Source: Luteolibacter sp. SL250
GTDB taxonomy: Bacteria; Verrucomicrobiota; Verrucomicrobiia; Verrucomicrobiales; Akkermansiaceae
DNA length: 64,000 bases
Direction of reading: 5' to 3'
NCBI RefSeq assembly: GCF_026625605.1
Contig: NZ_CP113054.1
Coordinates: forward strand, 1,798,001 to 1,862,000
The translations under genes were made by a program, and so were the position numbers. Numbering within the stretch: position 1 is the stretch's first letter; each line of letters opens with the position of its first letter. Positions 4,754-19,482 of this stretch are shown piece after piece. Below the pieces are notes generated by a model. That model did no database searches and was not told the origin of the DNA. It saw only the letters and a list, made by a program, of their open reading frames with translations.

Positions 4754-5707
4754 ATGCAGCTTCTCGAATTCGAAAAACCCGCCGCCGAGCTTGAACGCGA
4801 ACTGGAGAAACTGCGCGCAAAAGCAGCGTCGCAGAATATCGACATGTCTGCGGAGATCTCCATCATGGAGGGGAAACTGGCCGAAACCCGCGCTTCGATC
4901 TACAGAAACCTCACACCCTGGCAGCGCGTCCAGATCGCCCGTCACACGAACCGCCCGTTCATGCTCGACTACGTCGCACTCGCCTTCACGGACTTCTACG
5001 AACTGCATGGTGACCGTCACATCGGTGATGACGCATCCATGCCCGGAGGTTTCGCGCGGATCGGAAACCAGCGCGTGGTCGTCATCGGCCACCAGAAGGG
5101 CCGGGACACTAAGGAGAACCTCAAGCGCAACTTCGGCAGCGCCCACCCGGAAGGCTACCGCAAGGCGCTCCGCCTGATGAAGATGGCGGAAAAGTTCGGC
5201 CTGCCCGTCATCACCCTCATCGACACCCCCGGAGCCTTCCCCGGCATCGGCGCGGAGGAGCGCAACATCGCGGAAGCCATCGCCTTCAACCTGCGGGAAA
5301 TGATGCTTCTCAAGGTTCCCGTCATCGCCGTCGTCCTCGGCGAAGGTGGCTCCGGTGGTGCACTCGGCATCGGCGTCGCGGACCGCGTCCTCATGCTGGA
5401 GAACGCCTACTACTCCGTCATCAGCCCGGAAGGCTGCGCCGCCATCCTCTGGAAGCACCGCAAGCACGCCCCGGAGGCCGCGGAAGCCATGAAACTCGTC
5501 GCCCCGGACCTGATGAAGCTCAACCTCATCGACGACGTCATCGCGGAGCCGACCGGTGGCGCCCACCACGATCACCGGGCCACTGCGGACGCCTTCAGGG
5601 ACACCATCCTCCGTCACCTGGAGGACCTGAAAAAGCTCCCCGTCCAGAAGCTCCTCGACCAGCGCTACGAAAAGTTCCGCGCCTTCGGCGCGTGGCAGGG
5701 CAAGTGA
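4754..5707 (+). CDS. accA: Acetyl-CoA carboxylase carboxyltransferase subunit alpha
   Basis: The 317-aa product moves CO2 from carboxybiotin to acetyl-CoA in the first committed step of fatty acid synthesis, together with AccD, which is not in this window. Diagnostic segments are LTPWQRVQIARHTNRP, FGSAHPEGYRKALRLMKMAEKF, TPGAFPGIGAEERNIAEAI and GEGGSGGALGIGVADRV, the oxyanion-type CoA carboxylase signature. Length and N-terminal coiled coil are typical. It is preceded by the LysM gene with a 44-nt gap and followed by a hairpin-rich spacer. Confidence 0.97.
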   Translation: MQLLEFEKPAAELERELEKLRAKAASQNIDMSAEISIMEGKLAETRASIYRNLTPWQRVQIARHTNRPFMLDYVALAFTDFYELHGDRHIGDDASMPGGFARIGNQRVVVIGHQKGRDTKENLKRNFGSAHPEGYRKALRLMKMAEKFGLPVITLIDTPGAFPGIGAEERNIAEAIAFNLREMMLLKVPVIAVVLGEGGSGGALGIGVADRVLMLENAYYSVISPEGCAAILWKHRKHAPEAAEAMKLVAPDLMKLNLIDDVIAEPTGGAHHDHRATADAFRDTILRHLEDLKKLPVQKLLDQRYEKFRAFGAWQGK

Positions 5708-5722
5708 CGCCCGGTGGGAAAG

Positions 5723-5776
5723 GATGACAATCCTCCGGATTGTCATCTGGGGCAATCCGGAAGCTTGCCTCCTTTC
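5723..5776. repeat. Palindrome plus degenerate family-A repeat arm
   Basis: GATGACAATC and GATTGTCATC form a 10-bp stem closed by a five-base loop (CTCCG). A few bases later comes GGCAATCCGGAAGCTTGCC, a one-base variant of the family-A arm found at 18.1-19.5 kb. It sits just after the accA stop and may also act as its transcription terminator. Confidence 0.6.
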
Positions 5777-5907
5777 GTCGTGGCTTTCGTTGCGGAGACC
5801 TGAGGTGCCTTCCGCCATCCACCACACTCCACGGCGGGCTGCCCTGGAGCTCCCGCATTGGGCCGTCTTTTCTTGTCCATCCCGGATTATTGCCTGACAC
5901 TCGTCCG

Positions 5908-7983
5908 ATGAACTCCCTCCGGTTTCTTTGTCCCGCCGCTCTGTTGTGGATCTGCCTCTTCGTCGATTCCTCCGGACAGGGTAAGGATGCTGACAAACTG
6001 AAGCGCATGAATGCGCGGACCTTGGAGGCAAAGGAGCTCCCTGAAACCGTAGGATGGTTGGAGGATACGGAGGGAAAGGTGAAAGAGCGCGCCACCCGCG
6101 CGTTGCTCGCCGGGCCGGAGGCACTGGAAGAACTTGCCCAGCAGCTCCGCAGGAATGAGATGAAGGACAAGGATGGCCGCTATACCACCCCCTACTTCTA
6201 CCGCCAGATCGCGCTGGGTGGTGATCCTATCAGGGGGGAGAAACGGAGGGCCTATCAGAAGCGGGTGTTCGGGGAGTGGCTGGAGAAATTCCCCCGGTCG
6301 GAGGCTGCGATGCTGGCGCAGGCCCGTCTCCATGCGGAGTTGGCCAATGACACGAGGCTCATCCCCAACGGAAAGGATGTGGAGGGCACCAAATGGATCC
6401 GGATGCGGCGTGATCTGGAGGCGTCCGCCGCGTTTCTCGAAAAATCATCCGCTCTCCGCTCGGTGGATCCCGCATGGATGAATACCTATTTCGTCACGGT
6501 GGACCAGTTGGGGGATGACACGGATGGCCTGGAACGGGGAACCGTGGAGTTGATCCGGAAATTTCCGGATTGCGGCTACGTTCTCTCCCGCGCGGTTCTG
6601 AACCGCGTTGATCGCCGGGAGCCGGATGAGCGGGAGAATTTGGCCCCTTGGCTCAAGCGGCATTTGGATACGCTGCCGCCTGACACCGCCGCAAAGCTGT
6701 ATGCCCTCACCTACGCCGGGTTCGGGAACCATCGTGGCTATTCTGCAGCGCGGGGCTACCTGCCACTGGAGAGGGAGCGTATGTTGAAAGGGCTGGAACT
6801 GTTGGCCGCGGAGTATCCGGACAGCATCGTGATCGCCACGCAGGAAGTCGCGCTGCGCTGCTGGGTCCTGGAGGACCGGGCCGGAGCGCTGGCAGCGCTC
6901 AAACGGGCCGGCAACATCCTCGATGTGGAATTCATGGTGGGCACCAAGGACGGTTATAAGATCGCCGTCAGCTTCATCCGCTCCACACCTTGGAACCCCC
7001 AGGAGATGGGTGTCCCCGCCTTTTCCGGTTACTTCAGTGAAACCCCGCCGGATCGGGGCACCATCATGCGGAAGGCCTGTGCCGCCGGCCCCGCCGCGCT
7101 GGAGGAACTCATCAAAAAAATCCGCTCCGAAAGTCCGTTGGATCAGCACGGGAACTCGAATGCCGCACGCTTCTTCAGTTGGTTCAACGTCAAGGAAACG
7201 AATCTATACACCGCGGAGCTGCGCTTGGCCCATGCGGACCTGTTGGAGCGCTGGCGGAAGGAATATCCGGCATCGCCGGACGCCCAGCTTGCGTCCGCCC
7301 GCTACTGGATCAGCCGTGCTTGGGATGCCCGCGGGACAACCTACGCCAACGAGGTCGGGGAAAACCAGTGGAAGGGCTTCGCCGAAGGGTTGGCCCAGGC
7401 GAGAAAGCACCTCACGGCGGCGAAAGAACTGCAGCGGACGGATCCCGCATGGACGGATGTGGCGCTGGATCTGTTGCTCGGTGAAGGGGATCCGAACGAT
7501 GAATTCGAAGATATCACGGATGTGATGTTCAGCCATTTCCCGGAATGCCCGCAGACACTCGGTGGGGCTCTCTATTCATTCCGTCCGAAATGGGGCGGCA
7601 AGGCCGGTGCATGGGAACCTTGGGTGCGGGAAAAGACCAAAGCCCTGCCGGAGGATGTCCGTGCCCGCACCTATGCACAGGCGGTGATCATGGATGCCGG
7701 CTATGCCTTTTTCTCGAAGGAGAACGAAAAGGAGATTTTCGGAGGGAAGAAACCGGACATGGACCTGCTGTGGAAAGGCATTGCCTCCCTGCGGGAGAAG
7801 CATCCGGATTCCATCCGCTATCCCAGCGCGGAGGCCATGTTCCACTGCAAATATTCCGGAAAGGCGGCCCTCGCCCTGAAGGAGATCAAAAAACTGGATG
7901 GGAAAGTCGATCTGCGGGTGTGGTACAGGTATGACTACTATGAACGCTGCACCAACTGGCTGGCATGGAAATTGATGGAATGA
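5908..7983 (+). CDS. Secreted protein with internal duplication, paralog 1 of 3
   Basis: The 691-aa protein has an N-terminal signal peptide (SLRFLCPAALLWICLFVDSS). The mature part is two homologous halves offset by about 325 residues. AGPEALEELAQQLR (68-81) matches AGPAALEELIKKIR (393-406), and EWLEKFPRSEAAMLAQAR (123-140) matches RWRKEYPASPDAQLASAR (448-465). The WLKRHLDTLPPDTAAKLYA and WVREKTKALPEDVRARTYA segments also align. The mostly helical, Trp-rich units recall DUF4034-type proteins, but that is from memory and the function is unknown. The ATG is chosen because it begins the signal peptide. Two paralogs follow on the same strand. Confidence 0.85.
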   Translation: MNSLRFLCPAALLWICLFVDSSGQGKDADKLKRMNARTLEAKELPETVGWLEDTEGKVKERATRALLAGPEALEELAQQLRRNEMKDKDGRYTTPYFYRQIALGGDPIRGEKRRAYQKRVFGEWLEKFPRSEAAMLAQARLHAELANDTRLIPNGKDVEGTKWIRMRRDLEASAAFLEKSSALRSVDPAWMNTYFVTVDQLGDDTDGLERGTVELIRKFPDCGYVLSRAVLNRVDRREPDERENLAPWLKRHLDTLPPDTAAKLYALTYAGFGNHRGYSAARGYLPLERERMLKGLELLAAEYPDSIVIATQEVALRCWVLEDRAGALAALKRAGNILDVEFMVGTKDGYKIAVSFIRSTPWNPQEMGVPAFSGYFSETPPDRGTIMRKACAAGPAALEELIKKIRSESPLDQHGNSNAARFFSWFNVKETNLYTAELRLAHADLLERWRKEYPASPDAQLASARYWISRAWDARGTTYANEVGENQWKGFAEGLAQARKHLTAAKELQRTDPAWTDVALDLLLGEGDPNDEFEDITDVMFSHFPECPQTLGGALYSFRPKWGGKAGAWEPWVREKTKALPEDVRARTYAQAVIMDAGYAFFSKENEKEIFGGKKPDMDLLWKGIASLREKHPDSIRYPSAEAMFHCKYSGKAALALKEIKKLDGKVDLRVWYRYDYYERCTNWLAWKLME

Positions 7984-8022
7984 GTCATGTCTTGATGGCA
8001 CGGAACATTTTACATATCCCCC

Positions 8023-10086
8023 TTGATGATGAATCTCCGTATCTGCATTCCCGCGATTGCTTTCCTGCTTGCAGACATCGCCCCCGGCCAGGCGAAGAAC
8101 CCACTTTCCGGCACGAACCCGATGTCCCGGCGGTTGGCCGCGGACTCAGTGCCGCCTGTCACCGAATGGCGTGAGGACGATACGGAAGGAAGGGTGACCG
8201 CGAGGACGGCGGAGGCCATCGCGGCCGGGCCGGACGCCATGGAGAAGTTGGGCCAACATCTCCTCACAGCGGAGTCGAAGGACGGTGACGGCCGCTACAC
8301 CATGCCATATTTCTACCGCGAACTCGCTTCGCCGAAGGGCAGGCCGCAGGACATCCACACCATGGTCGGGGAGTGGCGGGCGAAGTGCCCGCAATCGCTC
8401 GTGGCGATGGTTGCGGAAGCGGCTTCGCTCAACGGTAGGGCCGTCGCTGCCATCGGGGACTCCGGGGAGGCACCGACCCTGGATGACAACTACCAGCGGG
8501 TGGCGGATATCTGCGCCCGCTCGTTGGCCCTGCTGGAGAAGTCGAAGGAGCTGGCGGACAAGGACCCCGGCTGGCATGTCACGAAGCTGGTGACCATCCG
8601 CGTCACGGACCATAACCGGGAGGCGTTCGAGAAGGCGGTGGACCATGCGTTGCAGCATTTCCCTGACAGCGGCTACATCCTTTCCCGTGCGGTGATGCAG
8701 ATCCGGCCGGAGTGGGCGGGTGACCGCCTCGCCTGGGAACCATGGCTCCGTGGAAAGCTGGCGAAACTGCCCCCGGACGTGGCCGCGAAGGCCTATGTCA
8801 GGACCATCGCCGAGCTGTCGATCTCTGTGGGCCAGAACGCGAGCATGACCTTGACCGGCGTGGTGCCGGATCTCGGCATGATCCACCGCGGCTGGGAGGC
8901 GTGGGCGAAGGATTATCCCGCCAGCATCGGTCTGGCCAGCGAGCAGGCCGCCCTCGCAGCGTGGGGGGTGCTCGACCAGGCCGCGATCCAGTCAGCGCTG
9001 CGCCGCGCGAATGGCAAGCTGGATGGCATGTTCACCCCCAAATCATCCTATGAAAATCTCCTCTACCATTTGAAGTCCATCCCCTGGGACCCGAAGATGG
9101 TGGGGCTGCCGGACATCAAGTCGTTCGTCCGGGATGACGTCGCCTTCACGGCGCGGGTCGTGGAGGCGGCTGCGGATGGTCCGAATGCGCTGGAGGATAT
9201 GGTGAAACACCTCCACACCTCGGAGCAGCGTGACGCGGACGGGAGCTACAACGCATTCGCCTTCTACCAATGGTTCCAGCAGGACATGCCTTACCTGACC
9301 CAGTTGAGGGAGTCGATGGAACGGCAGAAGCTGCTGGCAGCATGGGAGAAGGAATTCCCGGCTTCGCCCTACGCGAAGCTGGCATCCGCCCATCACTGGG
9401 TGGCCCGCGCCTGGGCGGCACGCGGCGCCAGCTACGCTGGTGGTGTCTCCGACAGCCGTTGGGCGGGATTCCGCTACGGTCTGTTGAAAGCCTCGGAGTA
9501 TCTGAAGCAGTCGCAGGAACTGCGGGAGACGGAACCCGCGTGGTTCACCGCCGTCGTGCAGGTGATGATGGGATCCGGGCAACTCGACCTCCAGAGCGAT
9601 CAGTTCAAGGCGCTCGCCGAGCCGATGTTCAAAAACTTCCCCGAGTCCCGCGAATGCCATCTCATGCTCGCCTTTGCGACCGCGCCGCGTTGGGGCGGTG
9701 AGTCCGGTGAGTGGGAGCCGTTCCTGCGCGAGGGTCTTGCCGGCCTGCCGGAGGATGCGAGTGCCCGCGCCTATGCCTCCGCCGTCATCGCCAACGAGGG
9801 TTACGCCATGCGCTATCCGGACCAACGGAAGGAGCGTTACGGAAGCATCAAGCCGGACAAGGTGCTGGTGCGCAAAGGCCTGAGATCCCTGGCGGAGAGA
9901 TTTCCCAAGAGCACCTACGTCACCAATGCGGAGGCCATGTGGTACAGCGGCTATGATGAGAATGCGGACCTTGCCTATGACGCCATGCAGCGCCTGAACG
10001 GCAAGCTCGATCTGCGCGTGTGGGACGACTACGACAACTACCACCGCTGCGTGCGCTGGGTCACCTGGAAGGCATACGGCAAGTGA
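8023..10086 (+). CDS. Secreted protein with internal duplication, paralog 2 of 3
   Basis: The 687-aa paralog begins 39 nt after the previous gene and shares its architecture. It has a signal peptide (IRCIPAIAF-like hydrophobic core ending near GQA), then a conserved opening block (VTEWREDDTEGRVTARTAEA). Two homologous halves begin at AGPDAMEKLGQHL and DGPNALEDMVKHL. The second half contains the strongly conserved WEKEFPASPYAKLASAHHW and RAWAARGASYAGGVSDSRW, and the end LDLRVWDDYDNYHRCVRWVTW matches the ends of both siblings. The start could be any of two adjacent ATGs in MMMNLR. Function unknown; probably periplasmic or extracellular. Confidence 0.85.
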   Translation: MMMNLRICIPAIAFLLADIAPGQAKNPLSGTNPMSRRLAADSVPPVTEWREDDTEGRVTARTAEAIAAGPDAMEKLGQHLLTAESKDGDGRYTMPYFYRELASPKGRPQDIHTMVGEWRAKCPQSLVAMVAEAASLNGRAVAAIGDSGEAPTLDDNYQRVADICARSLALLEKSKELADKDPGWHVTKLVTIRVTDHNREAFEKAVDHALQHFPDSGYILSRAVMQIRPEWAGDRLAWEPWLRGKLAKLPPDVAAKAYVRTIAELSISVGQNASMTLTGVVPDLGMIHRGWEAWAKDYPASIGLASEQAALAAWGVLDQAAIQSALRRANGKLDGMFTPKSSYENLLYHLKSIPWDPKMVGLPDIKSFVRDDVAFTARVVEAAADGPNALEDMVKHLHTSEQRDADGSYNAFAFYQWFQQDMPYLTQLRESMERQKLLAAWEKEFPASPYAKLASAHHWVARAWAARGASYAGGVSDSRWAGFRYGLLKASEYLKQSQELRETEPAWFTAVVQVMMGSGQLDLQSDQFKALAEPMFKNFPESRECHLMLAFATAPRWGGESGEWEPFLREGLAGLPEDASARAYASAVIANEGYAMRYPDQRKERYGSIKPDKVLVRKGLRSLAERFPKSTYVTNAEAMWYSGYDENADLAYDAMQRLNGKLDLRVWDDYDNYHRCVRWVTWKAYGK

Positions 10087-10160
10087 AGGCGCGTGGGTCT
10101 TGGTCGCTCCGCCTGATGACGATTGCGCGGAGGAGCCCCATCTGCTAGCCATTGGTCCCC

Positions 10161-10607
10161 ATGGATGGGTTCGAGGGCATCTTCCAATACATCGCCATCG
10201 CCGGCCTGGTTCTGGGCCTGCTGGTGAAGCCATGGGATGTCAGCCGGGTGAGGACCGCCATCCGCCGCAAGGGCGGGAAGGTGACCAAGCTGGAGACCGG
10301 TCCCTACAGCTCCGGCTGGCTGGTCGGAATGAACTCCACCATCCACCAGGTCGAATACACGGATGATGACGGGGAAACCCACCTCGCGGAAGTGTCGACT
10401 TCCTTGCTGATGGGGCTCTCCTTTGTCTCCGACATCATCATGCCGAAGGCCAGACTGCTGCGGAAGAACCCGAAGAACCCGGAAGCGGCGGCCGCCGCGC
10501 GGAAAGCTTCCGGCCACCACTACCCGGAGTTTCCTTCAGATCTCAAGGTGGATGAGAGCCGACGCCCGCGCCAGCGAATGGCGTGCCGGCCGCAACGGGA
10601 TGGTTAG
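10161..10607 (+). CDS. Small membrane-anchored protein, unknown function
   Basis: The 148-aa product has one N-terminal hydrophobic segment (IFQYIAIAGLVLGLLV) followed by a cytoplasm-like domain (VRTAIRRKGGKVTKLETGPYSSGW). VEYTDDDGETHLAEVSTSLLMG suggests a small beta-rich fold, and the tail is basic. It lies between the second and third large secreted paralogs on the same strand, 74 nt after the former. I do not recognise a family. An alternative TTG start three codons upstream is possible. Confidence 0.65.
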   Translation: MDGFEGIFQYIAIAGLVLGLLVKPWDVSRVRTAIRRKGGKVTKLETGPYSSGWLVGMNSTIHQVEYTDDDGETHLAEVSTSLLMGLSFVSDIIMPKARLLRKNPKNPEAAAAARKASGHHYPEFPSDLKVDESRRPRQRMACRPQRDG

Positions 10608-10793
10608 GCACAAATGCCGGCAAGGGATGAAGGAATTGTGATCGGTGGACCTTGCATTCGGGTTTGCGGTGCGGCGATTTCCTGCGGAAGCCTTATGTCA
10701 TTCGGAGAGGTGCCGCGCGGTGGGGTTTATGATCATCCGATGATATGGCTTCCAAGCCTTGCCCTGCTTCCATCGGTCGTCCATATACCGGGT

Positions 10794-12896
10794 ATGCTTA
10801 TCCGTTGGTCCCTGGTCTTCTGCTCGCTTTCGGTCATGGTTCTCAGTCATGCCGGCGCGCAGGATTCGCCGCCCGGAAAGCTCGTCAATCCACGGACACA
10901 GGTACTGAAGGTGAAGGAGCTGCCTCCCCTCTCCGGATGGGTGGAGGATACCGAAGGTGGTATCAGGGCGCGGTCGGAAATGGCATTGCTGGAAGGAGTG
11001 GAAGCCTTGGAGAATATGGCGGCGGAGCTGCTTGCCAAAGAGATGCGTGACAAGGACGGTCGCCACACCACGCCCATTTTTTTTGAGGGAATCACGGGTG
11101 AGGGCGGGAGGATTGATGGCAGGCCGAGGCTGGAATACCAGTTGGAGGTTTGTGCTGAATGGCGACGGCGCTTTCCTCAATCCCGTGCCGCCATGCTTGC
11201 GGAGGCACGGCTGTGTTCGCTTCAGGCCCACTATGCGATCTATTCAGGCAGGGGTGTGGCGGACGCAGATGACATCTGGAAGGTGGCTGGCGGTTTCATC
11301 GACCGTTCGATGGCCCTGTTGGAACAGTGCCGGGATTTCCGCAAGGTCGATCCTGCATGGTATGCCGCCTACTTCCAGGTGGTGGTGAAGTCAGACCTCG
11401 ACCGCCCGGCGTTCGACAGGCTGGCGGCGGAGCTGGTGAATGACTTTCCCGGGGATTCCCTGTCCCTTTCGAAAGCCGTCAAGTGCCTCTACGCCGAATC
11501 CTTTGGCAAACCCGGGGAGTGGGAACCGTGGCTGCGCGGTTTGCTCGGGAACCAATCCCCGGAAGACCGGGCGAAACACTATGCCCGCGTGCTGTATGAG
11601 ATCGGTGTCACCGATGGTTACGGCTCCGCCGGACCGGCATTCCTATGGCATTGCGCGATCGATGCGGAGCTGCTCGCGTCTGGCATGGATCTGCTGTCAA
11701 AACAGTATCCTGATAGTGTCTGGCTTGGCTCCGCGCATGCATCCGCTGCTGCGACCTGTTTGCGGGACCGCCAGCTCGCGTTCAAATACCTCAAACTTGC
11801 TGGAGGACACCTGCACATGGATCATATCGGTGGAAAGGGCGGCTATGATTCCGCTCTCGCGTTCATCGGCCAGGTGCCGTGGGATCTGGGTAAAGTCGGC
11901 GGCCCCCGCATTATTGCCCGCAGCTTCGGAGATGATCCGGAGTTTTCCCACAGAATGGACGAGGCCGCCGCGCGGGGACCTGCGGCGTTGGAACAGTTGA
12001 TCAGGACCATCCGTTCCACCGACGGTGGCAGGGACGAGGATGGTCTCTATTACAGCGAGCGGTTTTTCGGCTGGTTCAGGGAGAAACCGCGGAACATCGC
12101 GCAGGAGAAGCGGCGCATCCTCAAACAGGAACTGGTCGCAAAATGGTCCGCGGAGTTTCCTGCGTCTCCGTTTGCGAAACTTGCCTCCGCCAGCTATTGG
12201 GCGCATAGTGCGTGGAACGCGCGCGGCGGATACCATGCCGGTGCTGTGGAAGACGTACAGTGGAAGGGGTTTGGAACCCGCCTCGGACAAGCGCGCAAAG
12301 ATCTCATGGCATGCAGGGAACTGCGCGATGACGAACCTGTCTGGTCGTCCGTCGCGCTCATGATCATGAAGGGCGAGGGAATGGACCGGGAGGAATTCGA
12401 CGCGCTCTCCGATCATGTTTTCATCAGGTTCCCGGAATGCACCGACGCGGTGCTCCAGACCATGGATCTGCTGCAGCCAAAATGGTACGGCAAGCCCGGC
12501 GAATGGGAACCTTGGTTGCGCGCGCGGCTGAAGGATCTGCCGGAAGAACAACGTTCCATGGCTTACGCACGGGCTATGATCACCGTCCTCGGGTATGCGA
12601 GAAGTTCAAAGACGAATCTGCAGAATGTCTTTGGCGGGAAAAAACCGGACGTGCTTTTGCTGCTCGGTGGGCTGCGTCTGCTCGCAGCGAAGTTTCCGGA
12701 TAGCAAGCTGATCGCCAATGCGCAGGCGATGCACTTTGGCCTCTACTCGGAAGAGTCGGATACCGTTTACAAGGCGTTGCAGAAGATGGATGGAACGATT
12801 GACCTGCGGGTATGGTCCAAATACTCCGCCTATGAACCCTGCGAAAATTGGATCGCGCGCCTGCGGACGGAGGCGGCTCTGAAGGCAGCCAGATGA
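10794..12896 (+). CDS. Secreted protein with internal duplication, paralog 3 of 3
   Basis: The 700-aa paralog begins with a clear signal peptide (IRWSLVFCSLSVMVLSHAGA). The family opening follows (VKELPPLSGWVEDTEGGIRAR), close to VKELPETVGWLEDTEGKVK-type sequence in paralog 1. The two halves begin at EGVEALENMAAELL and RGPAALEQLIRTIR. The second half carries KWSAEFPASPFAKLASASYW and SAWNARGGYHAGAVEDVQW, and the C-terminus reads KMDGTIDLRVWSKYSAYEPC. An upstream open extension without a signal peptide was not used. The 186-nt gap before it suggests its own promoter. Function unknown. Confidence 0.85.
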   Translation: MLIRWSLVFCSLSVMVLSHAGAQDSPPGKLVNPRTQVLKVKELPPLSGWVEDTEGGIRARSEMALLEGVEALENMAAELLAKEMRDKDGRHTTPIFFEGITGEGGRIDGRPRLEYQLEVCAEWRRRFPQSRAAMLAEARLCSLQAHYAIYSGRGVADADDIWKVAGGFIDRSMALLEQCRDFRKVDPAWYAAYFQVVVKSDLDRPAFDRLAAELVNDFPGDSLSLSKAVKCLYAESFGKPGEWEPWLRGLLGNQSPEDRAKHYARVLYEIGVTDGYGSAGPAFLWHCAIDAELLASGMDLLSKQYPDSVWLGSAHASAAATCLRDRQLAFKYLKLAGGHLHMDHIGGKGGYDSALAFIGQVPWDLGKVGGPRIIARSFGDDPEFSHRMDEAAARGPAALEQLIRTIRSTDGGRDEDGLYYSERFFGWFREKPRNIAQEKRRILKQELVAKWSAEFPASPFAKLASASYWAHSAWNARGGYHAGAVEDVQWKGFGTRLGQARKDLMACRELRDDEPVWSSVALMIMKGEGMDREEFDALSDHVFIRFPECTDAVLQTMDLLQPKWYGKPGEWEPWLRARLKDLPEEQRSMAYARAMITVLGYARSSKTNLQNVFGGKKPDVLLLLGGLRLLAAKFPDSKLIANAQAMHFGLYSEESDTVYKALQKMDGTIDLRVWSKYSAYEPCENWIARLRTEAALKAAR

Positions 12897-12982
12897 TCAG
12901 CATGCTGAATCGTTACGGAAGATGTCTTGTCCGTTCGTGAAACGGGTATGAGACCACGGCACGAGCCGTCTCCACATCCCAT

Positions 12983-15076
12983 TCACTCCACCGGCACGTG
13001 CGGCTCGAAGGTCATCGCCCGTTCGTGTTCGCGGGCTTTCGCGGCCTGCCTGGCCTGCTGGTAGAATTGTTCCTGCACGCGGAACGCCTTCTTGCCCTTC
13101 GCCCGGACGATCCGCTGGGAGGTGCCGTCGGGCAGGATGCGGGAGGCCTGCGTGTTGTCCTGGAAGTAGGCGTCCAGGATGCGGATGAGGCGGCGTTTCA
13201 GTGGCGGTGCGTCGATGGGGATCATCAGTTCCACCCGCTTCTCCAGATTCCGGGTCATCCAGTCCGCGGAAGCGATATAGACCTGGGAATCCCCACCCTG
13301 GTGGAAATGGAAAAGGCGGGCGTGCTCCAGGAAACGGTCAATGACGGAGATGACCTCGATGTTCTTCGAGTGCTTCGCGTCGCCCGGTTTCAGACAGCAG
13401 ATGCCACGGATGTTGAGTTTCACCTCAACCCCGGCTTGGGAGGCCTTGTAGAGAGCGGCGATGATATCGGGATCCTGCAGGGAGTTCACCTTCGCGGTGA
13501 TCTTCGCAGGCAGCCCCTGTCCGGCCCGGTCCGCCTCGCTGGCGATGAGGTCCAGCAGCTTCGGCTTCATCGCGGTGGGGGCGGGGACCAGGCGCTGGAA
13601 GCGCAGCAGTTTGGAACGCCCTGTGACGGCGTTGAAGAAGAGTGAGGCGTCGTTGCCGTAGTCAGGCTTGCAGGTGAGGTAGGAGAGGTCCGTGTAGAGG
13701 CGGGAGGTGGACTCGTTGTAGTTGCCCGTTCCCAGGTGGACGTAGCGGCGCAGGCGTCCGGACTCCCGGCGGACGACCAGGCAGATCTTCGCGTGCGTCT
13801 TCAGGCCCTTCACCCCGTAGACGATCTGCGCGCCTGCGCGGCGGAGTTCGTCCGCACGGTCGAGGTTGCGGGCTTCATCGAAACGCGCCTTCAGTTCCAC
13901 CAGGGCGGTCACGTGCTTGCCGTTCTCCGCCGCCTTGATCAATGCGTCGATGATGCGGGACTGGCGGGCGGTGCGGTAGAGCACCTGTTTGATGGCGATC
14001 ACGTCGGGGTCCTCCGCCGCTTCCTCGATGAGTCGCAGCACCGGCTCGAACGATTCATAGGGATGGAAAAGCAGCAGGTCGCCGGAGGCGATGGTCTCGA
14101 ACATGGTCGAGCCGGGCGTGATGGCGGGGGAGAGCTGGCCGGGCCAGTCGGCGTCGCGGAGGTGGTCGAAGCCGGAGAGGAACGCCACATCCATGAAGGA
14201 GGAAAGTCCAGGCGGCCCGTCCATCTGGTAGACTTCCTGCGGGCTGGCGCCGGTAACCTTCTGGATGATGCGGGCGAGGTCGCGCGGTGCGTCCTCACGC
14301 AGCTCCAGCCGCACGGTGTCCGCGAAGCGGCGGGCGGTCAGCACATCCTCCATCTCGCCTGCAAGGTCGGTCGCGTCCTCCTCCTGTACGGCCATGTCGC
14401 CGTTGCGGGTGACGCGGAAGACGGTGGTGGCGGTGACATTCTCACCGGGGAAAAGCTGGTCGGCATGCGCGGCCACCAGATCCTCGATGAAGAGGAAGGA
14501 TGCACCCTCGCCATCCGTGGAGATGGGCACGCGGCGGCCCACGCTTTCCGGGATGGGGATCACGGCGTGGCGTACGGCCTGGGTTTCCGGGTCGAGCAGG
14601 CGGCAGGCCACCACGATCTGGAGACCGGGCACCTGGAGCGCCGGGCCGTCCGGATCGATGGCCAGCGGGGTGAGCAGGGGGAAGACCCCATCTTCAAAAA
14701 TGACGGAAGCCTGTGCCGCCTGGGTCAGGTTCAGGTCGCGGACGGAGAGAAGGCGGATCTGGTGCTTCTCCAGCGCGGGGAGCAGCACGTTGTTGAGCAG
14801 GGAGTATTGATCCGCGCACATCCGGAGGATGCGGGTGCGCAGCAGGGCCAGGTTCTTCACCGGGGTGAGGCCGGACAAGTCAGGCGTCTTCCGCCCGCTG
14901 CGGCGCATGAGCATGAGGCTGCCGATGCGGACCTGGAAGAACTCATCGAGGTTCGACGCGGTGATCGCCAGGAACTTCAGCCGTTCCAGCAGCGGCAGGT
15001 CGTCGCGCAGGGCTTCGTTGAGCACCCGCTGGTTGAATTCGACCCAGGAAAGTTCGCGGTTGAGGTAGGGGATCAT
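12983..15076 (-). CDS. ppk1: Polyphosphate kinase 1
   Basis: The 697-aa enzyme polymerises the gamma-phosphate of ATP into inorganic polyphosphate through a phosphohistidine, usually at the inner membrane. The N-terminus YLNRELSWVEFNQRVL is diagnostic. ALVELKARFDEARNLDRAD and GVKGLKTHAKICLVVRRE carry the catalytic His and Arg residues, followed by VHLGTGNYNESTSRLYTD. The second phospholipase-D-like half has YIASADWMTRNLEKRVELM. Full family length. The Ppx-like gene lies 111 nt upstream on the same strand and ppk2 is divergent beyond it, giving a polyphosphate island. Confidence 0.97.
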   Translation of the reverse strand: MIPYLNRELSWVEFNQRVLNEALRDDLPLLERLKFLAITASNLDEFFQVRIGSLMLMRRSGRKTPDLSGLTPVKNLALLRTRILRMCADQYSLLNNVLLPALEKHQIRLLSVRDLNLTQAAQASVIFEDGVFPLLTPLAIDPDGPALQVPGLQIVVACRLLDPETQAVRHAVIPIPESVGRRVPISTDGEGASFLFIEDLVAAHADQLFPGENVTATTVFRVTRNGDMAVQEEDATDLAGEMEDVLTARRFADTVRLELREDAPRDLARIIQKVTGASPQEVYQMDGPPGLSSFMDVAFLSGFDHLRDADWPGQLSPAITPGSTMFETIASGDLLLFHPYESFEPVLRLIEEAAEDPDVIAIKQVLYRTARQSRIIDALIKAAENGKHVTALVELKARFDEARNLDRADELRRAGAQIVYGVKGLKTHAKICLVVRRESGRLRRYVHLGTGNYNESTSRLYTDLSYLTCKPDYGNDASLFFNAVTGRSKLLRFQRLVPAPTAMKPKLLDLIASEADRAGQGLPAKITAKVNSLQDPDIIAALYKASQAGVEVKLNIRGICCLKPGDAKHSKNIEVISVIDRFLEHARLFHFHQGGDSQVYIASADWMTRNLEKRVELMIPIDAPPLKRRLIRILDAYFQDNTQASRILPDGTSQRIVRAKGKKAFRVQEQFYQQARQAAKAREHERAMTFEPHVPVE

Positions 15077-15086
15077 GGGAGAAAAA

Positions 15087-15178
15087 TTTCCAGTGTTCAG
15101 TTTTCAGTTTTCAGGAAGGCAGCATGCAGGAATCCGGAAGCGACCGCAGTCTCTTCCCTGAAAACTGAACACTGGAAA
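15087..15178. repeat. Inverted repeat pair between ppx and ppk1
   Basis: Two 21-bp arms that are exact reverse complements (core CAGTGTTCAGTTTTCAG) enclose a 50-bp spacer. The pair fills most of the 111-bp gap between the ppx stop and the ppk1 start, so it could act as an attenuating hairpin in the message or as an mRNA-stabilising element. The arms are not of family A-D sequence. Confidence 0.8.
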
Positions 15179-15187
15179 CTGACAAAC

Positions 15188-16747
15188 TTAGTTATCTTCA
15201 TCGATGACGACGGTGAGGCCGAAGACTTCCTCGAAGAGGTCCGCCTTCGACTCCATGGCGATGCGTTCCACGGCGGCGTCCTCCAGTCCGGGCAGGCGGA
15301 CGCGGAGCTTGCCGGCTTCACGCTTGATCTCGATCTGCGCGACGCGCTGGGCGTGGGTGCGCTCCAGTGCGTCCGCCACGCGGAGCAGCGCCGCCAGCTT
15401 TGAAACGCGGATCCGGTCCTCCGTCCCGAGGGCGGCGTAGCTGGGGTGCTCCAGCTTCGGCCCGGAGTGGCGGTGGTAGCGGGAGACCAGCGCGACGATG
15501 GTGACATCCAGCCGGTCCAGTCCGAAGATCTCCGAGTTGAGGATGATGTATTCCGAATGCTTGTGGTGCGCGCGCGCGGTGATGAAGGTACCCACCTCGT
15601 GGAGGATGGCCGCCACCTGGAGCAGCAGCGCGTCATGTGGCGTGAGGCGGTGCAGATCCGCCGTGGCATCGAAGAACCGGGTGCACAGGCTGCCCACGTG
15701 TTCGCCATGCGCGATGTCCGATTGGTAGCGCTCCGCGAGGATGTTGGCGGAGCGCAGCACCTCTTCCGCGAAAGTTCCGGTCAGTTCCTGGGAAACCAGC
15801 AGGTCATGCAGCAATCCCTGCTCGTAGTCACTGTCCGGGATGTGGATCTCCTCCTGCTTGAGAACCTCCGCGATGGCCAGGTTGATCTCCAGCGCGGGCA
15901 GCAGGCCTTCAGCGGTCTGGTAGTCCACCTGGAATCTCTTCACCAGCTCCACGTCGGAAAGCGTCGCCGCCTCCGAGGTGAACTGGCGGAGCGTCTTCAG
16001 TGGGGAGGCGCTGCCTTTCTTGATGAGCGAGGGCGCCACGGACTGGATCTCATAGCCGATCGCCACGATGCCGTCGATGGCCACATCCGAGTAGTCGAAT
16101 CGGATCTGGGCCAGATTTCCGGACGTATGTTCGCGGATCACGCGGTTGAGCGCGGGACCTTCGGTGTGGGAGCCTTCCAGCGCCTCACGGGTGCGGTGGG
16201 TGCCCAGCCGGTAGCTGGTGTAGCGGGTGATCTTTCCGTTCTGGAACAGAAGGGCGCGGGTGTTGCCGGGACCCACGTGGACCACCAGGGTGGTGTCCTG
16301 CTGCATGGCTGGCAGATTCTTCAGTCGGCGGCGCGTCTTCAGATAGATGAGGCGGGTCATCTCCCCGTCGTCGATGGTGCTCACACGCAGCCCGCACGCG
16401 ATGCGGATGCGGTTCATCACCGTGTCATGGTTCGTCGCCTCGCTGAGGATGTTCGTCGCCACCGCGCGGGTGAGGTCGTGCGGGTCATAGCCCAGCTCCG
16501 CCAGTGCCTTCTGGTAGCCTTTGATGATGGAAACGATGCGTTCCGTGGTGGAAAGGCTCACTTTGCCGTCACGGAAAATGTCGCTCGCCAGTGGAGCCGG
16601 CTGCTCCAGGAAATCGACAGGGGACAATGTGCCTTTTCCGTCACGTTCCGCCACCATCATGGAAACGGAACTGGCGCCGATGTGGAGCGCGGTATGGAGT
16701 GAGGCGGAATTTTGCTTCAGTTGCAGGGACTTCCGGGAGGCGGGCAT
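15188..16747 (-). CDS. ppx: Ppx/GppA-type phosphatase with C-terminal HD-like domain, divergent
   Basis: The 519-aa protein has an ASKHA-fold N-terminal half (TALHIGASSVSMMVAERD at 18-35) and an HD-like C-terminal half (AAILHEVGTFITARAHHKHSEYII). This matches exopolyphosphatase/guanosine pentaphosphatase architecture. The expected role is polyphosphate or (p)ppGpp turnover, fitting its place beside ppk1. The phosphate loops are unusual: the second Gly-rich loop reads VVHVGPGNTRALLF instead of the family's DxGGGS-like motif, and the HD pair reads HE. Activity may be altered. The start MPASRKSLQ precedes the first beta strand at a normal distance. Confidence 0.85.
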   Translation of the reverse strand: MPASRKSLQLKQNSASLHTALHIGASSVSMMVAERDGKGTLSPVDFLEQPAPLASDIFRDGKVSLSTTERIVSIIKGYQKALAELGYDPHDLTRAVATNILSEATNHDTVMNRIRIACGLRVSTIDDGEMTRLIYLKTRRRLKNLPAMQQDTTLVVHVGPGNTRALLFQNGKITRYTSYRLGTHRTREALEGSHTEGPALNRVIREHTSGNLAQIRFDYSDVAIDGIVAIGYEIQSVAPSLIKKGSASPLKTLRQFTSEAATLSDVELVKRFQVDYQTAEGLLPALEINLAIAEVLKQEEIHIPDSDYEQGLLHDLLVSQELTGTFAEEVLRSANILAERYQSDIAHGEHVGSLCTRFFDATADLHRLTPHDALLLQVAAILHEVGTFITARAHHKHSEYIILNSEIFGLDRLDVTIVALVSRYHRHSGPKLEHPSYAALGTEDRIRVSKLAALLRVADALERTHAQRVAQIEIKREAGKLRVRLPGLEDAAVERIAMESKADLFEEVFGLTVVIDEDN

Positions 16748-16875
16748 CGGTCATAGACTGGCTGCGAACCGCGCATTTACAACCTCCAATGTGTGACGCA
16801 CGTTTCACGGGCGGGGATGGGATTTCGCGGTCCTTCCGGCTTGTCAGGGGTCACTCCCGGGGGGATAAATGCGCC

Positions 16876-17703
16876 ATGCCGGTGAAGGGCCCACTTGAAC
16901 GATATTTTGTGAAGCCGGGGGATGCCCTGGATCTTGGCAAGATGGACACCTCGGAGAAAACGGTCTTCGAGTCCGTGACGAAAGACTCCTATCTTCCGAT
17001 CGCCGACCGGCTGAAGGTGGAGTTGCGTGAACTGCAGAAAGTCCTATACGCCCAGAGCAAACATCGGGTGCTGGTGGTGGTGCAGGCCATGGACACGGGG
17101 GGGAAGGATGGCTGCGTGAAAAACGTATTCTCCGGGATCGATCCGCAGGGCATCCGGGTGCAGGCGTTCAAGAAACCCGCGGAGGAGGAACTGGCGCATG
17201 ATTTCCTGTGGCGCATCCACCAGCACGTTCCGCGGAACGGAGGGATGGTCATCTTCAACCGCAGCCACTATGAGGACATCATCGCGGTGCGGGTGAAAAA
17301 GCTTTTCCCGGACGAAGTTTGGAAACGCCGCCAACGCCATGTGCTGGAGTTTGAACGCATGCTGGCGGAGGAAGGCACCACCATCGTCAAGTTATTCCTC
17401 CATATCTCCAAGGATGAACAGAAGAAGCGCCTGGAGTCCCGTCTGGCGAACCCGGCCAAGCATTGGAAATTCAACCCGGACGACCTTTCCGACCGCGCCC
17501 GGTGGGCTGACTTCATGAAGGCATACGAAGAGGTGATCTCAAAGACCTCCACCGACCTCGCTCCGTGGTATGTCATCCCGGCGGACCGGAAGTGGTACCG
17601 TGACCTCGTCGTCGCCCAGATCATGGTCAACACGCTGAAGGGCCTGAACATGGAGTACCCGAAGATCACCTGGGACCCGAAGTCCATCGTCGTGGGGGAC
17701 TGA
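16876..17703 (+). CDS. ppk2: Polyphosphate kinase 2 (PPK2 family)
   Basis: The 275-aa single-domain enzyme uses polyphosphate to phosphorylate a nucleoside diphosphate (or monophosphate). Walker A is VVVQAMDTGGKDG, Walker B is NRSHYED, and the lid-like segment RQRHVLEFERMLAEEGTTIVKLFLHISKDEQKKRL is conserved. APWYVIPADRKWYRDLVV is the family C-terminal signature. The length fits single-domain PPK2s; class cannot be settled by eye. It is divergent from the ppx-ppk1 unit across 128 bp. The ATG at MPVKGPLERYFVKP is the family-like start, although the frame is open further upstream. Confidence 0.95.
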   Translation: MPVKGPLERYFVKPGDALDLGKMDTSEKTVFESVTKDSYLPIADRLKVELRELQKVLYAQSKHRVLVVVQAMDTGGKDGCVKNVFSGIDPQGIRVQAFKKPAEEELAHDFLWRIHQHVPRNGGMVIFNRSHYEDIIAVRVKKLFPDEVWKRRQRHVLEFERMLAEEGTTIVKLFLHISKDEQKKRLESRLANPAKHWKFNPDDLSDRARWADFMKAYEEVISKTSTDLAPWYVIPADRKWYRDLVVAQIMVNTLKGLNMEYPKITWDPKSIVVGD

Positions 17704-17710
17704 AGGAAAG

Positions 17711-17736
17711 GAAGGGAGGGCAAGCCTCCGGATTGC
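17711..17736. repeat. Single family-A repeat arm
   Basis: AGGGCAAGCCTCCGGATTGCC-type sequence, the left arm of the family-A inverted pairs that follow at 18.1, 19.0 and 19.4 kb, lies immediately after the ppk2 stop. No matching right arm is seen here. Confidence 0.7.
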
Positions 17737-17758
17737 CTCACCTGAAAGGACAACCTAC

Positions 17759-17950: not shown

Positions 17951-18120
17951 GAATTTCGGCGGATCATCGCAGGGCGGATGCCATGACCGGCCGGGGAGCG
18001 CCGGATGCTGATGGTGCAAGGGTTTCCACCCCATCAGGGACGGATGGGGGGGGGGGCTCCCGGTGGCGCGTATTGCACCACCGCCCGCAGCCCGGATTGC
18101 ACGATGCCGGGAAAGGGAGG

Positions 18121-18214
18121 AAAGGAAGGCAAGCCTCCGGATTGCCTGCATCAAAATGGAGAGGGCTTGAGGTGGTGATTCTTTGGGTGGCAATCCGGAG
18201 GCTTGCCTTCCTTT
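18121..18214. repeat. Family-A twin-hairpin (REPIN-like) element 1
   Basis: Two 26-bp arms are exact reverse complements of each other: AAAGGAAGGCAAGCCTCCGG... on the left and ...CCGGAGGCTTGCCTTCCTTT on the right, separated by 42 bp. Within each arm GGCAA..TTGCC and GGCTTGCC-like segments are partly self-complementary. The inverted pair with a short spacer is the layout of REPINs. It lies between the small coiled-coil gene and the aqpZ stop. Confidence 0.85.
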
Positions 18215-18220
18215 CTACCC

Positions 18221-18913: not shown

Positions 18914-19024
18914 GGATGCAACTTTTGGTTGGGAGTGCCCGGTTCCGGCACTTCACGCTCTATCTGGATTAGAAACTGACAGCGCATTACTCAAGGTTAA
19001 TTATGCGGGGTTCGGGAGGAAAGA

Positions 19025-19117
19025 AAGGAAGGCAAGCCTCCGGATTGACTCATCAGATCGGCGGATCCCGGGCATGCTTCTTTCTGTGGGGGGCAATCCG
19101 GAGGCTTGCCTTCCTTT
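19025..19117. repeat. Family-A twin-hairpin element 2, abutting the RAYT remnant
   Basis: The left arm (19025-19050) and right arm (19092-19117) are the same 26-bp family-A inverted pair with one mismatch, separated by 41 bp. The right arm ends two bases before the stop codon of the truncated RAYT reading frame. Confidence 0.85.
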
Positions 19118-19118
19118 C

Positions 19119-19364: not shown

Positions 19365-19389
19365 GAGGAAAGATAGGAGGGGATGGAAG

Positions 19390-19479
19390 AAAGGAGGGCA
19401 AGCCTCCGGATTGCCTCATCATGAATGGCAAGCCGCGGGATGTTTTTTGGGGAGGCAATCCGGAGGCTTGCCTTCCTTT
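19390..19479. repeat. Family-A twin-hairpin element 3
   Basis: Arms at 19390-19415 and 19454-19479 form the same 26-bp inverted pair with one mismatch, separated by 38 bp. It lies between the RAYT remnant's 5' side and the stop of the methyltransferase gene at 19483. Confidence 0.85.
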
Positions 19480-19482
19480 CCC

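Follow-up and report, generated by a model that had tools for sequence, protein, structure and literature searches.

The interval between accA and ppk1 in Luteolibacter sp. SL250 holds three neighbouring genes, here called A, B and C, each encoding a protein made of two homologous units. The doubled form is a variant of a known, uncharacterised family, DUF4034 (Pfam PF13226). The genes lie in a 64,000-nucleotide stretch of contig NZ_CP113054.1 (positions 1,798,001 to 1,862,000 of the forward strand; hereafter the window). We read the three proteins as exported, non-enzymatic alpha-solenoids resembling tetratricopeptide repeat (TPR) proteins, serving as binding or adaptor scaffolds, and give this reading slightly better than even odds (about 0.55). 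It was drawn from the chemistry of the unit's invariant residues (W, R, G, A, P and V), from the predicted solenoid fold and from leaders that point outside the cytoplasm.

Judged by sequence, each of A, B and C consists of two homologous units that divide at about residue 365. Every one of the 15 pairwise comparisons among the six units exceeded its shuffled controls (z 29–127, 200 shuffles each), the nine pairings of a first with a second unit among them (z 29–46). A profile of the three first halves matched that of the three second halves with a probability of 99.9 (E 1.3e-35, 304 columns). A hidden Markov model (HMM) of 18 single-unit relatives, built without any window sequence, detected two units in every protein, scoring 183, 174 and 152 bits for the second units of C, A and B and 96, 76 and 63 bits for the first units of C, B and A; the best of 300 shuffled units reached 6.0 bits. 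With an HMM of 14 relatives found independently of the family motif, the second units scored 170, 170 and 144 bits and the first units 76, 64 and 57 bits (best shuffle 3.8). The duplicated unit proposed by a first-pass annotation of this DNA was thus borne out by shuffling, profile comparison and the HMM of single-unit relatives. The landmark motifs on which it relied recur in the second halves but are degenerate in the first: all three first halves lack the W of FPxSPxAxLASAxxW, WEPW has become LAPW in the first half of A, LPED varies among first halves, and GPxALE reads GVEALE in the first half of C.

A tree of the six window units and 18 relatives (midpoint root, long branches, 8 of 21 inner branches open) grouped the six units together (support 100/100), and within them the first units (100/99) and the second units (99/95). 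Because first units grouped apart from second units, the internal duplication preceded the two gene duplications; on this tree the unit duplication is earlier than the gene triplication, and the grouping excludes the sampled relatives only. The two units have not kept the family signature (AWxARGxxxAxxV and PxWxG) equally. Over 33 columns conserved at 85% or more in the 18 relatives, second units kept 74 of 99 cells and first units 58 of 99. Ten of these 18 rows had been selected through the signature pattern, and the count was repeated with 14 rows that came only from profile and protein searches (26 columns), in which second units kept 68/78 and first units 46/78. In both counts the core signature, defined as W, A, R, G, A and V at positions 102, 104, 105, 106, 110 and 113 of the second unit of B, was retained in 18/18 second-unit cells and 5/18 first-unit cells, and P193, W195 and G197 in 9/9 and 4/9, respectively. 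G45, W79, P84, A101, P143, P178, Y222, P266 and S268 were retained in all six units, so that in sequence the first units look like frames without the family's special feature. The earlier description of six copies of one unit holds for their descent, but the first units are largely without the family signature, while the second units keep it.

The connection to DUF4034, raised tentatively in the first-pass annotation, held for A (25.5 bits) and B (34.1 bits), which exceed the curated cut-off of 21.3 bits, but not for C by itself (16.1 bits); C is tied to the group through the 35–40% identity that A, B and C share over their full length. In all three proteins it was the signature region of the second unit that gave the best match, and the profile stretches matched were only 56–111, 39–105 and 60–104 of 274 positions. 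Scored by the core signature, the first units alone would not qualify as DUF4034. Beyond the low score of C, the window proteins differ from DUF4034 in having two units each, in the mostly lost signature of the first unit and in being encoded by three genes close together. DUF4034 itself matched 9 of 387 genomes of the phylum at E 0.001 and, among 14 control genomes, those of Escherichia coli and Deinobacterium chartae. A literature search for DUF4034 or PF13226 found no described function, most subscription journals being outside its coverage. The single NCBIfam match for A–C (E 0.13, far under its cut-off) was rejected, and the sole match to a PDB sequence (E 0.31) was taken as chance.

The AlphaFold2 model of full-length A (mean predicted local distance difference test (pLDDT) 75.2, predicted template modelling score (pTM) 0.69) was nearly all helical, the first half having 16 helices and the second 17, in matching order. 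Different folds in the two halves, which the first-pass annotation had named as evidence against its own proposal, were thus not seen. The second unit of A, modelled from its alignment with the other five units, reached pLDDT 85.1 and pTM 0.85. Most structures returned by Foldseek and VIA-align were TPR or other helical-repeat proteins, TPR proteins taking the top VIA-align rows for the unit; a few were helical proteins of other kinds, for example a 14-3-3. Helical repeats reach Z scores of about 13 through their common arrangement alone, so these matches support a fold class and no particular family or function. Each half is thus predicted, by computation, to be a TPR-like alpha-solenoid.

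A hydrophobic N-terminal stretch is present in all of A, B and C, and by this feature the proteins are probably exported; the signal peptides of the first-pass annotation stand as hydrophobic N-termini, with export only probable. A simple pattern search found no lipobox in the first 80 residues of any of the three, whereas 9 of the 18 single-unit relatives carry the pattern. All 18 have a hydrophobic stretch within their first 60–70 residues and, given these leaders, export of this kind of protein is not unusual.

Relatives are widespread, and none of those read showed two units. At E 0.001 a profile of A, B and C matched 52 of 387 phylum genomes (no more than three candidates being scored in each) and 9 of 73 genus genomes, and in a sample of 60 genomes of the family protein A alone matched 7, the own genome being included in both of the latter counts. 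Among the matches listed outside the own genome, the matched part was one unit or less, and a scan of genome contigs with the first unit of A as query found no relative. One genus match (L047), which covers the first unit only in part, reads by eye as a different, efflux-adaptor-like protein. Named genomes, scanned with eight single-unit relatives as query and the pattern AW[HEQ]ARGx[GA][YW]A, yielded 43 loci from 74 pattern matches; these carry the signature by selection, since the search pattern was the signature itself. They span Verrucomicrobiota, Planctomycetota, Acidobacteria, Pseudomonadota, Actinomycetota and others, and 25 of the 43 matched DUF4034 at E 0.001. Extra domains occurred in a few (Sel1 in three; FGE-sulfatase, rhomboid and beta-helix in two each; also WD40 and thioredoxin-like). 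When a family HMM was run on 81 proteins (A, B, C and 78 relatives, 35 of them from the family and phylum searches and 43 from named genomes, some genomes counted twice), it found the unit in all and two units only in A, B and C. Nine of the 78 relative frames continue beyond the DNA retrieved, and that of L007 is interrupted by a stop; the count leaves out eight further genus loci and at least 22 matching phylum genomes. Of the earlier suggestion that a secreted, fused and triplicated form is unusual, the doubling (0/78 other relatives) stood, but not the secretion, which is probably common among single-unit relatives.

The single-unit Verrucomicrobiota relatives (for example, L049–L052) share with A–C the unit, the signature and hydrophobic or lipoprotein-like leaders, and differ in having one unit of about 280 residues in proteins of 343–396 residues. 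Six large phylum proteins (L018, L019, L023, L024, L030 and L037) combine a DUF4034-like signature region with C-terminal ankyrin-like repeats, as judged by eye. Four plasmid records gave partial matches; of two inspected, one was unannotated and one had unspecific neighbours.

Under the scaffold reading, an ancestral single-unit exported protein would have been duplicated inside its own gene, so that a single longer protein came to contain two solenoid units. Of these, the first would have kept its packing positions and lost the signature loop, the second would have kept the loop, and the doubled gene would later have been copied twice. The second unit may bear the family's conserved binding or folding feature, with the first acting as an extension or partner-specific arm, and each protein would, in the manner of exported TPR adaptors, wrap or display its own protein or peptide partner outside the cytoplasm. 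One such adaptor is LbcA of Pseudomonas aeruginosa, the TPR lipoprotein adaptor of the CtpA protease, an exported, all-helical, right-handed TPR spiral of 11 TPRs with a lipid anchor that might wrap substrates of the protease (PMC8764530). The comparison concerns how such a protein works and is not a claim of family. LbcA was among the structure matches (8sxf_C, Z 9.5, root-mean-square deviation (rmsd) 7.2, 243 residues aligned; 7rqf_A, Z 8.0, rmsd 20.9, 354 aligned), both with Z in the unspecific range, and A–C differ from LbcA as described there in lacking a Pfam TPR match and the lipobox pattern expected of a lipid anchor.

Several observations weigh against the scaffold reading. The full-length model rests on a three-row alignment (A, B and C). 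For the single unit, the best VIA-align match (6q6g_Z, Z 11.2, rmsd 6.8, 235 aligned) lies below the warning level of about 13, and Foldseek gave no match under E 0.001; for the full length, Foldseek gave three, with template modelling scores of just 0.13–0.19. An hmmscan (E up to 10, with filters that drop most matches above about 0.1) found no Pfam TPR model in A, B or C. Relatives were found mainly through second units, which biases the comparison of the two units in favour of the second. Unit fusions elsewhere include enzyme-like domains, which makes a role near enzymes possible, and no recurring neighbour gene was noticed in ten single-unit relative loci read by eye without a family scan.

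Reading of the open frames confirmed the coordinates first assigned to A, B and C (Table 1). The start of C was taken as the codon aligning with A and B, its frame opening upstream at 10614. The genes had been called tandem; they are indeed three same-strand neighbours, with 39 bases between A and B, but a gene of 148–151 codons with its own ortholog in a relative separates B from C. Its product has a hydrophobic stretch near the N-terminus (judged by eye) and matched no Pfam or NCBIfam family, and the gene is present in 4 of 73 genus genomes including the own, two of these being distant matches. Promoter-like sites occurred at the shuffled level and terminator-like sites below it.

Table 1 Features of the accA–ppk1 interval (window positions; G446 is the nearest relative searched)
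Feature	Positions	Strand	Description
Block between accA and ppk1	5796-12982	.	No colinear DNA match in G446 except the small gene
Protein A	5908-7983	+	691 aa; two DUF4034-like units, ~residues 62-351 and 396-686
First unit of A, with leader linker	5974-7014	+	Family signature largely lost
Second unit of A	7015-7980	+	Signature kept
Protein B	8023-10086	+	687 aa; two DUF4034-like units, ~residues 71-343 and 389-681
First unit of B	8092-9108	+	Signature largely lost
Second unit of B	9109-10083	+	Signature kept
Small gene between B and C	10161-10607	+	148 aa; 151 from possible TTG start at 10152
Protein C	10794-12896	+	700 aa; two units, ~residues 70-358 and 397-688
First unit of C	10860-11903	+	Signature largely lost
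Second unit of C	11904-12893	+	Signature kept

The block is flanked upstream by what we take to be accA (4754-5707) and downstream by the polyphosphate kinase 1 gene ppk1 (12983-15076, by Pfam). Among the matches listed, these two genes are adjacent in three of 73 genus genomes (the own, G446 and G433) and distant on one contig in four (G053, G427, G443 and G470); in the others they lie on separate contigs or one is missing, many of the 73 being drafts. The interval spans about 7.3 kb here, about 0.8 kb in G446 and about 1.2 kb in G433. In G446 (AccA 97% and PPK1 96% identical), window DNA is matched at 89–90% up to 5795 and again from 12983. Inside the block the sole match in order is the small gene, at 74%, which in G446 stands alone between accA and ppk1. 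A, B and C had no match in 80 kb of G446, nor their profile in its genome.

The small gene is itself unusually divergent from its G446 counterpart, with a synonymous divergence (dS) of 0.94 over 141 codons (rough standard error 0.17) and an amino-acid identity of 67% (tblastn pairing). Thirteen neighbouring genes gave dS 0.17–0.48 and identities of 77–98% (one, row '1737?', with a stop in the relative and a hand-chosen start, was retained), so that the dS of the small gene is about twice the highest of its neighbours. Its ratio of non-synonymous to synonymous divergence (0.23) suggests a real gene under constraint. As A and B lie upstream of it and C downstream, one plain insertion is not enough to account for the block. 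The simplest reading of these sequences is a recombination event, in one lineage or the other, that replaced the entire interval with that of a more distant donor; no other searched genome showed the doubled form, so we name no donor candidate. Alternatively, the block may have been lost in G446 through two deletions flanking the small gene, which would account for A and B on one side of this resident gene and C on the other. Under such a loss the small gene should show ordinary divergence, contrary to the dS observed, and no other doubled form was found among the 73 genus genomes, many of them drafts; we regard it as fairly unlikely. A hypervariable small gene combined with loss in G446 is possible.

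Several other features were recorded around the interval. A polyphosphate gene cluster occupies 12983-17703, where ppk1 is accompanied by a presumed exopolyphosphatase gene (15188-16747) and presumably by a second polyphosphate kinase gene. A palindromic repeat with arms of about 28 bases, often in inverted pairs, occurs directly after accA (5718-5776) and further downstream (17710-17740, 18117-18215, 19023-19118 and 19386-19482), and the G446 stretch holds similar pieces. Its 19-base core, with at most one mismatch, was found at 14 sites in the own genome (none for a reversed control), 8 of them at genome positions 1803751–1817472, in this region, and 6 at 3.82–3.89 Mb. For the window open reading frames from 31099 to 64000 no ortholog was paired within the 80 kb of G446, which may signify little, since gene calling was poor and missed true pairs elsewhere.

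Turning to what the proteins do, one alternative to the scaffold reading is a pseudo-dimer, in which single-unit relatives would homodimerise and the fused first unit would be a degenerate half that completes the dimer interface. That all three first units keep G45, W79, P84, A101, P143, P178, P266 and S268 while losing the signature fits an interface role, but a pTM of 0.69 warrants only moderate trust in the arrangement of the halves, and we consider a pseudo-dimer unlikely.

Less probable still is that A–C are fast-diverging conflict proteins, acting in contact-dependent competition, in defence against phages or predators or in surface variation, with several variants kept in a swap locus. 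The absence of the block from the nearest relative searched, the low identity of the paralogs (35–40%) and the divergence of the resident small gene would suit such a role. However, A, B and C, the three proteins searched, matched none of the PADLOC-DB families at E up to 1, one single-unit relative had no match in phage records, and A had none in viral contigs. On the same results we rejected a viral origin and assignment to a known anti-phage defence system. An unrecognised enzyme, with the second unit as active copy and the first as pseudo-enzyme, would have the usual look of an active/inactive pair, its motif kept in one unit and lost in the other, but is very unlikely, as the predicted fold is a repeat solenoid and the ten residues invariant in an alignment of 17 units and relatives include no D, E, H, C, S or K (each is W, R, G, A, P or V, although S268 comes close to invariance). 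The same residues and the all-helical TPR-like prediction agree with the absence of a recognised catalytic motif noted in the first-pass annotation.

If A–C are exported solenoid scaffolds, one speculative extension, which we hold improbable, is that accA–ppk1 is a swap locus at which homologous recombination through the conserved flanks exchanges a cassette of exported two-unit solenoids, one unit serving as fixed frame and the other as recognition module. Were this true, the set of extracellular binding arms would differ from species to species. Apart from that extension, the window poses a well-defined question about how recombination has acted at the accA–ppk1 site. For the DUF4034 family, three proteins that each pair a signature-bearing unit with a largely signature-less one form a compact natural experiment, in which the part of the unit needed for folding could be told apart from the part needed for partner binding.

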